45,597 nt of DNA, from positions 1 to 45,597 of the forward strand of contig CAMWVQ010000016.1 in the NCBI GenBank assembly GCA_947177635.1. Direction: 5' to 3'. Positions 32,246 through 36,006 of the stretch are shown piece after piece (position 1 is the stretch's first letter; each line of letters starts with the position of its first letter). The translations under genes and the position numbers were made by a program. This DNA is from an uncultured Porphyromonadaceae bacterium. Lineage in GTDB: Bacteria > Bacteroidota > Bacteroidia > Bacteroidales > Muribaculaceae. The notes beneath the pieces are model-generated. The model made no database searches. It saw nothing but the letters and a program-made list of their open reading frames with translations, and was not told the origin of the DNA.

Positions 32246-33466
32246 TTATGACGGCAGGTCGTCGCGGCCCGCAAAGAAGTAGGGGATGTTGCAGAGGAAG
32301 ATGTCGGCGGCCGCGAGGATGGAGGAGGATTTCAACAGGTCAGAGAGCATTATCTCCCCGACCACATAACGGTAGGATGGGGAGCGGTATTCCTCCCGGA
32401 TTTCTTTCCAGGGGAGGAGCGTGGCCAGGTCGGTGGTGGAGAAACGGGCGTAGAGCTTCAGGGGCAGGTCGGTGGTGTAGACCGGACGGGGGGTGAAGGC
32501 GGTCTTCTTGTATTCGTAGCGGTAATCGTGGCGCAGGGCGGTGATGTCGCTCAGCAGCGAGGAGGCGGTCGGGTAGCCGCCGGCTCCCTTGCCGAACATG
32601 AACTGGCGGTCGTAACATTCCCCACGGATGACGACTCCGTTATATTCATCGTCAACGGCGTAGATGTAGCGGTTGGGAGCCACGAACTCCGGCATCACGA
32701 ACATCGTGAAACGGTTGTCGGGGAGTTTCACTACCTGGGCCACAAGCTTGATTTTCATCCCTTTCTCACGGGCGTAGCGGATATCCTCGTCGCCAAGGGT
32801 CGGGATTCCGTAGACGAAGATGCCGGAGGGGGCCACATACACCCCGATGGCGTGGAGGGTGATGATGACAAGCTTGTTGAGCGAGTCGGCGCCACTCACG
32901 TCATGGGTGGGGTCGCTCTCGGCGAATCCGAGTTTCTGGGCGCGCAGGAGAGCGTCGGCGTAATCCTCGCCGTGGTCGAAGACGCGCGACAGTATGAAGT
33001 TGGAGGAGCCGTTGAGAATCCCTTTCACCTCAAGGAGCAGGTCGTTGTCGTAATACTCCTCAAGGTTGCGTATCACCGGGATGGAGCCGCAAGAGGAGGC
33101 ATCGTAGAGAAGCGCGGCACCGGTGGCGCGCTGCAGCTCCATCAGTTCGGGCAGATGGCGCGCCAGCATGGCCTTGTTGCCGGAGACCACATTCTTGCCA
33201 CGTCGGAGGGCTTCGCTGACGATGCGGAACGAGGCCTCGGCATTGTCAATCACCTCCACAACAAGGTTGATTGAGGGGTCGGAGAGAATATCGTCGGGGG
33301 AGGTGGTGAGCAGCCCGGCGGGAACCTCCACATCGCGAGGCTTGTCGAGTGAGCGCACACAGATTTTCGTTATCGAGGCGTGGGCGTTGGCCGCACGGCC
33401 GATGACTTTGTAAAGAGCCTGGCCTACTGTTCCGAAACCGACAAGGCCGATTGTCATATCATTCAT
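32246..33466 (-). CDS. hom: Homoserine dehydrogenase
   Basis: The start at 33466 (MNDMTIGLVGFGTVG) was chosen because the frame upstream overlaps metX. The 406-residue protein has a Rossmann motif GFGTVGQ, EVIDNAEASFRIVSEALRRGKNVVSGNKAMLA, the catalytic region GILNGSSNFILSR and AQKLGFAESDPTHDVSGADSLNKL. The C-terminal ~90 residues are a divergent ACT-like segment, which I believe is usual in Bacteroidetes. It reduces aspartate semialdehyde to homoserine. Third gene of metY-metX-hom, it starts 10 nt after metX and so supplies the substrate for the other two enzymes. Confidence 0.94.
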   Translation of the reverse strand: MNDMTIGLVGFGTVGQALYKVIGRAANAHASITKICVRSLDKPRDVEVPAGLLTTSPDDILSDPSINLVVEVIDNAEASFRIVSEALRRGKNVVSGNKAMLARHLPELMELQRATGAALLYDASSCGSIPVIRNLEEYYDNDLLLEVKGILNGSSNFILSRVFDHGEDYADALLRAQKLGFAESDPTHDVSGADSLNKLVIITLHAIGVYVAPSGIFVYGIPTLGDEDIRYAREKGMKIKLVAQVVKLPDNRFTMFVMPEFVAPNRYIYAVDDEYNGVVIRGECYDRQFMFGKGAGGYPTASSLLSDITALRHDYRYEYKKTAFTPRPVYTTDLPLKLYARFSTTDLATLLPWKEIREEYRSPSYRYVVGEIMLSDLLKSSSILAAADIFLCNIPYFFAGRDDLPS

Positions 33467-33476
33467 AATATCGGGG

Positions 33477-34553
33477 TTAAGATTTAGTTTGTGACTGCGC
33501 CGCTTCCTGCCGGAAGAAAGGCACAAGGATTGAATTGAGCTGTCCGTGCTCCACGAGGAACCCGTCGTGGCCCAGAGGGGAACTGATTTCCTCATAGGCG
33601 CATCCGGGTATCATCGAGGCGAGCCGGCGCATCTCACCGGGGGTGAACACCAGGTCGGTTGAAAGGCCGATGGCCAGAATACGCGCCCCTCCGGATGCGA
33701 CGGCCTCCAAGGCGGAGGCTACTCCGCCACGGTCACGGCCGATGTCGTGGGTGTCGAACGTGTCGAGAATCGTCACATAAGAGTAGGCGTTGAAACGGTT
33801 GACAAGCTTCTCCCCCTGATGGGCCTGGTAGGTGCAGGCGCGATGGGTGGATGGGAGTCCGGGGAGGGAGCAGGGGGCGTCGTGATTGTCCTGCTGGGTA
33901 AGGTTGTATCCCTCCGGCCCACGGTATGTGAGCAGCCCAAGGGCACGCGCCGCCGCCAGTCCGGCAGCTCCGGCATCAGGGTCGGGATTGCCGAATGTCT
34001 TGTCTGCGCGGATGGCCATGCGCTGGGTCTCGTCGATGGCGATGGCCCAGGGGGAGGCCTTCGCGGCTGTGGCGAGGAGCACTATCGCGTCGAAGCGTTC
34101 CGGCTCCTGCGCGGCCCATTCCAGAGCCTGGAAGCCACCGACAGACGCCCCGACCAGCCCGCGAACACGGCCAATGCCGAGATGGGAGGCGAGCAGCCGG
34201 TGGGCACGGGCCACGTCGCGCATCGTCACGGCGGGGAAGTCGCCGTAATAGGGCCGTCCGGTTGAGGGACACACGCTCATGGGGCCGGTCGTGCCATAGC
34301 AGGAGCCGATGATGTTGGCGCACACCACGAAATAACGTGCGGGGTCGAGAAATCCACCCTCCACCACCGTGTGGGGCCACCAGTCGGCCACATCGCTGTT
34401 GGCCGTCAGGGCATGGCACACCCATATGACGTTGTCGCGGCGCGCGTTCAGTGTGCCGAAAGTGTGGTATGCTATTTCGAGCCGGTCAATGACTCCACCA
34501 AGTTCCAGCCGGAACGGTTCCTCTGACCGATAGATGGATTGCGATACTTTCAT
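33477..34553 (-). CDS. metX: Homoserine O-acetyltransferase
   Basis: The 358-residue alpha/beta hydrolase has its nucleophile Ser in GASVGGFQALEWA, the catalytic Asp in GLSTDLVF and His in GHDGFLVEH. The MetX-typical HALTANSDVADWW and IIGSCYGTTGP blocks are present. It acetylates homoserine. Its start overlaps the metY stop by 4 nt (ATGA), so the two are translationally coupled. Confidence 0.93.
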   Translation of the reverse strand: MKVSQSIYRSEEPFRLELGGVIDRLEIAYHTFGTLNARRDNVIWVCHALTANSDVADWWPHTVVEGGFLDPARYFVVCANIIGSCYGTTGPMSVCPSTGRPYYGDFPAVTMRDVARAHRLLASHLGIGRVRGLVGASVGGFQALEWAAQEPERFDAIVLLATAAKASPWAIAIDETQRMAIRADKTFGNPDPDAGAAGLAAARALGLLTYRGPEGYNLTQQDNHDAPCSLPGLPSTHRACTYQAHQGEKLVNRFNAYSYVTILDTFDTHDIGRDRGGVASALEAVASGGARILAIGLSTDLVFTPGEMRRLASMIPGCAYEEISSPLGHDGFLVEHGQLNSILVPFFRQEAAQSQTKS

Positions 34554-35842
34554 AGTCCGGTCTTTTCAAAAGCCTGCCTGAAATCATCTATGATGTCCTC
34601 CACATCCTCAAGTCCCAGACTTATGCGGAGTAGCGTCGGTGTGATTCCTGCCGCCTTGAGGTCGGCGTCGCTCAGCTGTTTGTGGGTGGTGGAGGCGGGG
34701 TGGGTGACAACAGTGATGGAGTCGCCGATCATCGTCATATGGGCGCAGAGCTGCAACGCCTCCACGAATCTCACGGTGCTGTCGAGGTCACCCTTCAGTT
34801 CGATGTTGAACACCGCCGATGAACCGTGGCGGAAATACTTGGCGGCCGCCTTATGATAGGGATGGTCTTCAAAGCCGACGAAGCTCACGGTCTTTACGCA
34901 GGGACTTTCTGCGCAGAAGCGGGCCAGGCGCGCGGTGGATTCCACCTGATGGCGCACACGCAGGGAGAGTGTCTCCAGGCCGAGACACATCAGGTAGCTG
35001 TCGAACGGGGAGGGGCAGGTGCCGAAGTCACGCAGACCGTCAACCCTGCACTTCACCGCGAAGGCCGCGGCGCCGAAAGCATCCACAAGGTTGAGTCCGT
35101 GGTAACCGTCAGAGGGGCCGTCGAGCTGCGGGAATTTCCCGTTGCGCCAGTTGTAGCGGCCACCATCCACAATGACTCCACCCATTGCCGTGCCGTGGCC
35201 GTTAATCCACTTCGTCGCCGAGTCAACCACGATGTCGGCTCCCCAGTCGAAGGGGTTGCACAGGTAACCTCCGGCACCGAAAGTGTTGTCGACAATCAAC
35301 GGCACATCAACCTTCCGGGCCACTGCGGCCAGCTCCTCGAGGTCGGCCACGGCACAGGTAGGGTTACCCATCGACTCGCAGAATATGCCCTTTGTCCGGG
35401 AGTCGCAGAGTGATTCCAGGGTGGCGGGGGATTCATCGTATGCAATCCTCACCTCCACACCCAGCTTCCTGAGCGAATGACGGTAGAGATTGTAAGTGCC
35501 GCCATAAAGAAAGGGGGTGGTAACAATGTTGTCACCCTGCCCGGCCAGGGCGGAGATGGCGATGAAGATGGCCGACATTCCGGAAGAGGTGGCCACCGCC
35601 GCGCTCCCGCCGTAAAGGGCCGCTATGCGCTCCTCATAAGAGGTGGTGGTGGGGTTCTGGAGTCGGGAATAGATATTTCCGGGCTGGGAAAGCTCGAACA
35701 GCCCGGCTGCATAGTCGCAAGTCGGGAAGCGGAAAGCTGAGGTGGGGACGATGGCGAGGCCACGGGCGTTGCCCGCCTCGCCGGGATGGAGGCCACCGTG
35801 AATCTGACGGGTGGCGAATCTGAGTTTGTTTTTCTGAGCCAT
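34550..35842 (-). CDS. metY: O-acetylhomoserine sulfhydrylase (PLP-dependent)
   Basis: The 430-residue Cys/Met-metabolism PLP enzyme has the MetY-type features TRQIHGG, YSRLQNPT, SSGMSAIF and DNTFGAGGYLCNPF. The PLP lysine is in DSATKWINGHG and the C-terminal VTHPASTTHKQL is conserved. It makes homocysteine from O-acetylhomoserine and sulfide. It is the first gene of metY-metX-hom and is preceded by a promoter, a Met/Cys-rich leader ORF and an intrinsic terminator. Expression is therefore probably attenuated in response to charged tRNA-Met, tRNA-Cys or both. Confidence 0.94.
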   Translation of the reverse strand: MAQKNKLRFATRQIHGGLHPGEAGNARGLAIVPTSAFRFPTCDYAAGLFELSQPGNIYSRLQNPTTTSYEERIAALYGGSAAVATSSGMSAIFIAISALAGQGDNIVTTPFLYGGTYNLYRHSLRKLGVEVRIAYDESPATLESLCDSRTKGIFCESMGNPTCAVADLEELAAVARKVDVPLIVDNTFGAGGYLCNPFDWGADIVVDSATKWINGHGTAMGGVIVDGGRYNWRNGKFPQLDGPSDGYHGLNLVDAFGAAAFAVKCRVDGLRDFGTCPSPFDSYLMCLGLETLSLRVRHQVESTARLARFCAESPCVKTVSFVGFEDHPYHKAAAKYFRHGSSAVFNIELKGDLDSTVRFVEALQLCAHMTMIGDSITVVTHPASTTHKQLSDADLKAAGITPTLLRISLGLEDVEDIIDDFRQAFEKTGL

Positions 35843-35857
35843 AGATGGTAGTATAAC

Positions 35858-35891
35858 AAAAAATCCGGCGCTCCTGAAAGGACGCCGGATT
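35858..35891 (-). terminator. Intrinsic terminator in the metY leader
   Basis: In RNA sense AATCCGGCG pairs with CGCCGGATT (9 bp), extended across a single-base bulge by TCCT/AGGA around a UUC loop, and followed by six U. It ends 15 nt before the metY start. A full-strength terminator upstream of the first gene, with no gene before it to terminate, indicates attenuation. Confidence 0.85.
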
Positions 35892-35936
35892 AAGTGAGTT
35901 ATTTCTGAATGAATATGACAGCTTTACACCCGGCGT
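35882..35936 (-). promoter_or_regulatory. Antiterminator pairing in the metY leader
   Basis: ACGCCGGGT (35936-35928), in the last leader codons, is complementary over 9 positions (one G-U) to ATCCGGCGT (35890-35882), the 5' arm of the terminator. The two structures are mutually exclusive. A further pair, ATGAATATGA in the Met-codon stretch (35965-35956) and TCATATTCAT (35918-35909), would place the antiterminator segment in an apical loop when no ribosome is present. Confidence 0.75.
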
Positions 35937-35980
35937 TGTCGGCTGCACATGCACATCATATTCATCATTGAGCTATACAT
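35924..35980 (-). CDS. Met/Cys-rich leader peptide of the metY-metX-hom operon
   Basis: The 18-codon ORF MYSSMMNMMCMCSRQRRV ends in TAA. It has Met at positions 1, 5, 6, 8, 9 and 11 and Cys at 10 and 12, a composition very unlikely by chance in front of a methionine operon. It starts about 14 nt after the predicted transcription start and ends 33 nt before the terminator stem. Ribosome stalling in the Met/Cys run would leave the downstream antiterminator segment free. A ribosome reaching the stop codon would cover it. Confidence 0.8.
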   Translation of the reverse strand: MYSSMMNMMCMCSRQRRV

Positions 35981-35998
35981 TGTCTCTTATTTTCGAGG

Positions 35999-36006
35999 CA
36001 AAGGTA
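35999..36006 (-). promoter_or_regulatory. -7 box of the metY operon
   Basis: TACCTTTG on the minus strand is a perfect TAnnTTTG match. It gives a leader RNA of about 150 nt before metY. The -33 element is weak (TTTT in place of TTTG). Confidence 0.7.

Follow-up and report, generated by a model that had tools for sequence, protein, structure and literature searches.

Attenuators of the trp, his and thr type, which occur in Proteobacteria, consist of a leader ORF containing regulatory codons, of hairpins 1:2, 2:3 and 3:4, and of an intrinsic terminator. According to PMC3766115, the attenuators then covered by Rfam responded to His, Leu, Thr and Trp; the same account also mentions Ile/Val and Phe. 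Among systems devoted to sulfur amino acids, PMC8632094 presents the uORFC-8-2 motif as a Cys-codon attenuator located before cysS in Rhodobacterales, while PMC1262725 describes leader ORFs with runs of Cys codons, lacking terminators, before the cys operons of Mycobacterium and other bacteria, and handles methionine as a case for the S box. As far as the text of PMC2965389 goes, its authors knew in 2010 of no leader peptides shown outside Proteobacteria and Actinobacteria, and the same article describes the swapping of sensor types at one gene. Clues for leader-peptide attenuation have been noted upstream of amino-acid operons of a flavobacterium (PMC9723704), and sORFs resembling leader peptides in B. 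thetaiotaomicron (PMC7366714); thus, as far as these two accounts go, the phylum alone would not make such a leader new. No methionine leader-peptide attenuator appeared among the matches listed in a search of the open-licence literature without preprints, covering titles and the openings of abstracts.

In the 45.6-kb stretch of DNA analyzed here (the window), which belongs to a member of the Muribaculaceae, the metY-metX-hom operon is preceded on the minus strand by a leader (36006-35843) containing a promoter box, a Met-rich ORF and a terminator (Table 1). This leader is very likely a transcription attenuator of the ribosome-mediated kind, through which the supply of elongator Met-tRNA, perhaps along with that of Cys-tRNA, controls metY-metX-hom; it would probably let the cell switch on its methionine genes only when its ribosomes are short of methionine. 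It shares with the trp, his and thr attenuators a run of codons in the leader ORF, three hairpins, a terminator and an operon making the sensed amino acid. Unlike them, it appears to sense Met, matches no Rfam family and occurs in Bacteroidota; furthermore, its strand 2 is the 3' end of the ORF itself, and its hairpin 1:2 extends into the stop codon. As in uORFC-8-2, sulfur-amino-acid codons of the uORF lie in the first stem and a terminator follows, but uORFC-8-2, as described in PMC8632094, is concerned with Cys only, precedes a tRNA synthetase gene and belongs to another phylum. The Mycobacterium-type leaders, in turn, have in common with it a short ORF with sulfur-amino-acid codons near the stop, and differ, in the account of PMC1262725, in lacking a conserved terminator and in using Cys, not Met. 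The leader is best read as a known mechanism with an amino-acid specificity that is new; Met would be added to the specificities named in PMC3766115, PMC8632094 and PMC1262725 (Trp, His, Leu, Thr, Ile/Val, Phe and Cys).

Table 1. Features of the candidate attenuator and of the operon that follows it in the window.
Feature	Position	Strand	Basis or remark
Promoter box TACCTTTG, Bacteroidota-type -7 (presumed)	35999..36006	-	sequence
Leader ORF MYSSMMNMMCMCSRQRRV, then stop (35926-35924); 18 codons, 6 Met and 2 Cys	35924..35980	-	sequence; homologous Met-rich uORFs
Putative stall site: Met and Cys codons, block of codons 5-11 (Met Met Asn Met Met Cys Met)	35948..35968	-	
Hairpin 1:2; strand 1 (35947-35940) with 35932-35925	35925..35947	-	folds, covariation
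Strand 2, antiterminator segment ACGCCGGGU, 9 nt, 3' end of the ORF	35928..35936	-	
Strand 3, AUCCGGCGU, common to antiterminator and terminator	35882..35890	-	
Intrinsic terminator; hairpin 35891-35862 plus T run 35863-35858	35858..35891	-	folding
metY, O-acetylhomoserine aminocarboxypropyltransferase	34550..35842	-	TIGR01326, 528.3 bits; cut-off of 495.1 passed
metX, homoserine O-acetyltransferase	33477..34553	-	TIGR01392, 330.4 bits, E 1.3e-98; under curated cut-off of 500
hom, homoserine dehydrogenase	32246..33595	-	NF004976, 296 bits; cut-off of 205 passed

All the parts of such an attenuator could be recognized in the sequence: a promoter-proximal ORF, a Met block near its 3' end, hairpin 1:2, pairing 2:3 and terminator 3:4. 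We take the promoter box to be a -7 element of the Bacteroidota type (consensus TAnnTTTG); the transcription start is a presumed one. The terminator hairpin, AATCCGGCGTCCTTTCAGGAGCGCCGGATT, has nine outer pairs, a bulge and four inner pairs (-19.0 kcal/mol), and its run of six T ends 15 nt upstream of the metY ATG (35842). Strand 2 forms with strand 3 a duplex of -16.6 kcal/mol, so that an antiterminator pairing that would exclude the terminator is present, and hairpin 1:2 takes in most of the stop codon and hides the antiterminator strand. The sequence-only reading had already pointed to the promoter box, the 18-codon ORF, the terminator and the complementarity between the end of the ORF and the 5' arm of the terminator, and all four were found again. 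On both strands of the window the leader ORF was the only sORF of up to 60 amino acids with at least six Met and at least 25% Met, and no such sORF arose in 5,000 dinucleotide shuffles of the 168-nt leader. The fold of the leader was better than those of all 200 shuffles (z -4.98).

To place the ribosome on these strands, the general size of its footprint and the usual three-hairpin attenuator scheme were used. When methionine is plentiful, the ribosome would reach the stop codon and cover strand 2, and the terminator would form, ending the transcript after about 130 nt. Under methionine shortage the ribosome would stall on the Met codons; with its A site on codons 5 to 9 it would cover strand 1 and not strand 2, which would be free to pair with strand 3 and let the polymerase continue into metY. 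If the ORF were not translated, hairpin 1:2 would hide strand 2, and termination would result by default. A Met specificity is awkward in theory, because every protein starts with the residue being sensed. Initiation depends on Met-tRNA, so that a severe lack of Met should curb it as well, which counts against the proposed reading; a Met attenuator poses the question of how the cell separates a shortage of initiator Met-tRNA from one of elongator Met-tRNA.

The operon was assigned by NCBIfam matches, the metX score remaining under a cut-off that is the equivalog cut-off of TIGR01392. As listed, the hom ORF is about 43 codons too long at its N terminus; its likely start is MNDMTIGLVGFG, and it overlaps the 3' end of metX (33467-33595, minus strand). 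Homocysteine, the product of the operon, is the precursor of methionine. That the downstream enzymes make homocysteine, as had been stated from the sequence, is borne out by the matches of metY, metX and hom together with established knowledge of the pathway.

The sequence-only reading had proposed aligning the upstream regions of metY in relatives, looking for conservation of a Met-rich ORF and for covariation in the competing stems, and both were observed. In the window's genus, metY was matched in 9 of 14 genomes, and all nine carried a Met-rich uORF before the gene (L001-L009). The same search in 149 genomes of the family gave a match in 121, mostly distant ones with about 42% identity or less. 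Restricting the view to same-clade metY genes (66-74% identity, the window itself included), a Met-rich uORF ending in MMxMMCMxSRxSRV-stop or a variant of it was present at 12 of the 15 complete loci. The leader was absent from the other three (L014, L017 and L020) and likewise from L022, a disrupted metY; L021, cut at a contig end, lies outside the complete set.

With R1, a covariance model that takes in the end of the ORF and some 20 nt more but not the terminator, 49 places were found in 48 of 397 family genomes. By ORF and context, 32 of them were real (L036-L065, L155 and L157), and the remaining 17 were rejected as chance ATG-rich sequence without a match to metY, metX or hom. For its part, L008, found through metY, was missed by the scan. 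Over 393 genomes spread across the order, R1 found no further convincing copy: nine genomes matched, two of them of the window's genus, and the eight places in the other seven (L066-L073) were discarded, showing neither an SRxSRV-type ORF end nor a metY, metX or hom homologue in the fetched stretch. Leaders of the window's type (class I) were also present in four records titled Alistipes (L080, L082, L098 and L102), among the best 80 of 581 named contigs. Around G615, neither this class nor the second one described below was found in the 14 genomes searched for each.

The comparisons were made on a set of 38 leaders. The window's family, Muribaculaceae, contributed 32 of them and named records six, four of which are Alistipes. 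The family part of the set includes L008 and leaves out L064, whose contig begins inside the ORF, so that 38 of 39 collected leaders were kept. Terminators played no part in this choice. Met made up a fraction of 0.305 of the 20 C-terminal residues of the ORFs, as against 0.053 of their N-terminal parts, with 3 to 11 Met per ORF (mean, 7.4, start codon included). This richness is partly selected, because leaders entered the set through R1 or, near metY, through a filter for Met-rich ORFs; loci found by metY alone are free of the Met filter. In 31 of the 38 leaders a TANNTTTG box was present in the 75 nt ahead of the uORF start codon, as against none in the control stretch (0/38); in L086 just 14 nt were available for this search. 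Of the two residues proposed to be sensed, Met is the constant feature of the leaders. Since Cys was present in 31 of the 38 ORFs, its sensing would be secondary or incidental.

A T-tailed hairpin was observed 19 to 56 nt past the uORF stop in 37 of the 38 leaders, the exception being L155. At that locus (about 1390-1470) there is an isolated ORF end, MKLMMRSRRSRL followed by a stop, with neither a terminator nor a met gene in the fetched stretch, and it is probably an orphan or degenerate leader.

In the remaining 37 leaders the 3' end of the ORF paired with the 5' arm of its own terminator at a mean of -16.6 kcal/mol, compared with -14.3 kcal/mol for foreign arms, and none of 200,000 permutations, which leave relatedness in, reached the sum obtained with the own arms. 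When a segment further up the ORF was used as a control, 122,813 of 200,000 permutations reached the own sum, and with the own 3' arm of the terminator 2,076 of 200,000 did, strand 2 thus pairing somewhat better with its own than with foreign 3' arms. An earlier test with 14 leaders had given 1 in 100,000 permutations, although, in individual leaders, as many as 10 of the 13 foreign regions paired better than the own one (L015). The longest unbroken run of 2:3 pairs ranged from 4 (L157) to 14 (L056), with 5 in L015 and L057, leaders that, like L157, pair poorly.

The CCGG core hardly varies, so the covariation of pairing 2:3 rests on the flanking pairs. To compare these, the two strands were anchored independently on their CCGG/ACGG cores, which was possible for 34 of the 37 leaders (L060, L063 and L103, in which the core motif gave no anchor, were set aside). 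In the four flanking pairs, 100 of 136 variable cells were standard pairs, versus a mean of 87.0 +- 3.2 after shuffling, and 10 of 100,000 shuffles, with relatedness left in, reached that number. For example, L019, L058 and L059 have A-U where most leaders have G-C, and in L006 AUGGUCCGG pairs with CCGGACCGU. L103, which has a different core and ends in GLSDRS-stop, and L006, ending in MVRV-stop, each pair with their own terminator. Along a tree of 29 MetY proteins, a small test that retains relatedness, six double changes fell on the same branch and five of them ended paired, compared with 3 of 5, 1 of 4 and 1 of 6 in rotated controls. RNAalifold on the 14-row MAFFT alignment (A1) did not recover the terminator, because its arms were misaligned there.

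What RNAalifold did recover was a hairpin within the end of the ORF, hairpin 1:2. In alignment A2, whose 13 rows do not include L008, the paired cells of this hairpin amounted to 96.2%, versus 33-40% when the strands were slid, and its covariation score was 0.218, compared with 0.082 +- 0.031 for shuffled alignments, none of 500 reaching it. One of five measures did not rise above the shuffles: a single pair had changed on both sides, as many as in 401 of 500 shuffles. In the 32 leaders with ATG-CGC or ATG-TGC, the stop codon varied together with the CGC/TGC codon: leaders with CGC ended in TGA in 8 cases and in TAA or TAG in 3, while those with TGC ended in TGA in 3 and in TAA or TAG in 18 (Fisher 0.0018, relatedness left in). 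A broader test of the energy between strands 1 and 2 gave a weak result, 9,028 of 100,000 permutations doing as well, and just the short hairpin is supported. These data lend moderate support to a hairpin 1:2 that would sequester strand 2 in the untranslated ORF. The longer third pairing that had been suggested, between the Met codons and 35918-35909, does form in the window sequence. As a family feature it was dropped, since 85,523 of 100,000 permutations were as good; the sequestering hairpin that is conserved is a shorter one, formed within the ORF.

As for the genes behind the leader, methionine-pathway genes lay downstream of 31 of the 32 real-looking family matches, and the first gene was metY in 26 of the 32. 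In L057, L059 and L062, metX-hom follows directly, without metY, and in L063 the leader precedes another PLP enzyme of the metY superfamily. The leader is kept before methionine genes where metY has been lost, and therefore tracks the pathway and not metY itself. Downstream of the leader at L048 (about 1500-2000) come a metY remnant, of which only residues 5-130 are matched, and then metX, as if metY were being lost and the leader kept.

Three other explanations of the leader were weighed. A conserved nascent chain, MMxMMCMxSRxSRV, might itself arrest the ribosome, free methionine or SAM being a possible ligand, instead of the ribosome stalling for want of charged tRNA. The C-terminal SRxxRV that recurs in many of the ORFs would fit such an arrest peptide, but the same bases form strand 2, which explains the pattern. 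Furthermore, the number and position of the Met codons vary, and the peptide ending is dispensable: L008 stops ahead of strand 2, L009 and L063 read beyond it, and L103 and L157 (MRGAIS) end differently as well, the RNA pairing being kept in L008, L009 and L103. We consequently give an arrest peptide little chance. It is still harder to regard the ORF as incidental, with a metabolite such as SAM binding the leader RNA directly. The strong structure of the leader RNA and the presence of a SAM riboswitch at metY in other Bacteroidales speak for such a switch. Nevertheless, at the gathering score no Rfam family, T-box included, matched in the window, nor did any match the leader in four class I loci (L001, L002, L006 and L080), where the only match was to a tRNA adjacent to the leader of L002. 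The 14-row alignment is conserved mainly in the ORF end, with no aptamer-like core outside it, and in-frame Met codons crowd near the 3' end of the ORF.

Very improbable, too, is a leader whose ORF and terminator simply fix the level of read-through or yield a small RNA, with no sensing of Met involved. It would release a leader of about 130 nt, an outcome expected on any reading. Against it stand the roughly sixfold enrichment of Met at the proposed stall position and the fact that homocysteine, from which methionine is made, is what the operon produces. The Met-rich ORFs of the relatives and the covariation of the stems favor the leader-peptide attenuator proposed by the sequence-only reading. 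A leader of this kind would be a candidate ready-made methionine-responsive control element for gut Bacteroidales.

The SAM (S-box) riboswitch RF00162 can also precede metY, but it differs from the Met leader in being a SAM-binding aptamer with no ORF. It was found in none of 25 family genomes, the window's included, under strict filters that can lose weak matches and with some of the genomes incomplete, whereas, elsewhere in the order, it was present in 6 of 16 genomes of other families; 3 of 14 control genomes were matched. Three of the four loci fetched (L174, L175 and L176) have it before a metY of about 48% identity; at the fourth, L177, metY, metX or hom was not found. The leader may have replaced the SAM riboswitch at metY, which would suggest a change from riboswitch to leader peptide at one gene within one order.

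Another uORF, ending in MRMCR-stop and unrelated to the Met leader, precedes metY in records of Alistipes, Rikenellaceae, Tidjanibacter and Prevotella. This second class was seen at 23 loci (L079, L088, L089, L091, L092, L101, L106, L108, L110-L115, L117, L119, L120, L122, L128, L129 and L132-L134), at about 1200-1390 of the fetched loci and at about 365 in L101. The ending is MRMCL in L113 and L132, and L116 also ends in MRMCR. The element has an invariant AUGCGAAUGUGCC...GGC hairpin around the stop codon and, in addition, a covarying hairpin whose loop resembles UACG; no terminator was evident by eye, and none of nine loci examined matched an Rfam family. A search of the 18 genomes behind the named loci found 14 places in 13 genomes, with metY following in 13 of the 14 and none seen after the element in L190. 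Across 295 genomes of the order, the MRMCR core pattern, allowing up to two mismatches, gave a single match, with two mismatches, and a literature search for MRMCR returned no related match. We lean slightly toward the view that the SAM riboswitch on metY was replaced at least twice by translation-based sensors, the Met-codon attenuator and the MRMCR element, so that methionine synthesis would be gauged by the ribosome and no longer by SAM.

Finally, metY genes more distant than these were preceded, upstream of position 1501, by other uORFs rich in sulfur amino acids (L141, L144, L145 and L153). Two of them read MMCCCMCCCSC-stop and MRMMACCCC-stop, the latter downstream of a SAM riboswitch; the others were an MCMCMC ORF followed by a GC-rich hairpin and a T run, and an MMAMMCM ORF, also with a hairpin and a T run.
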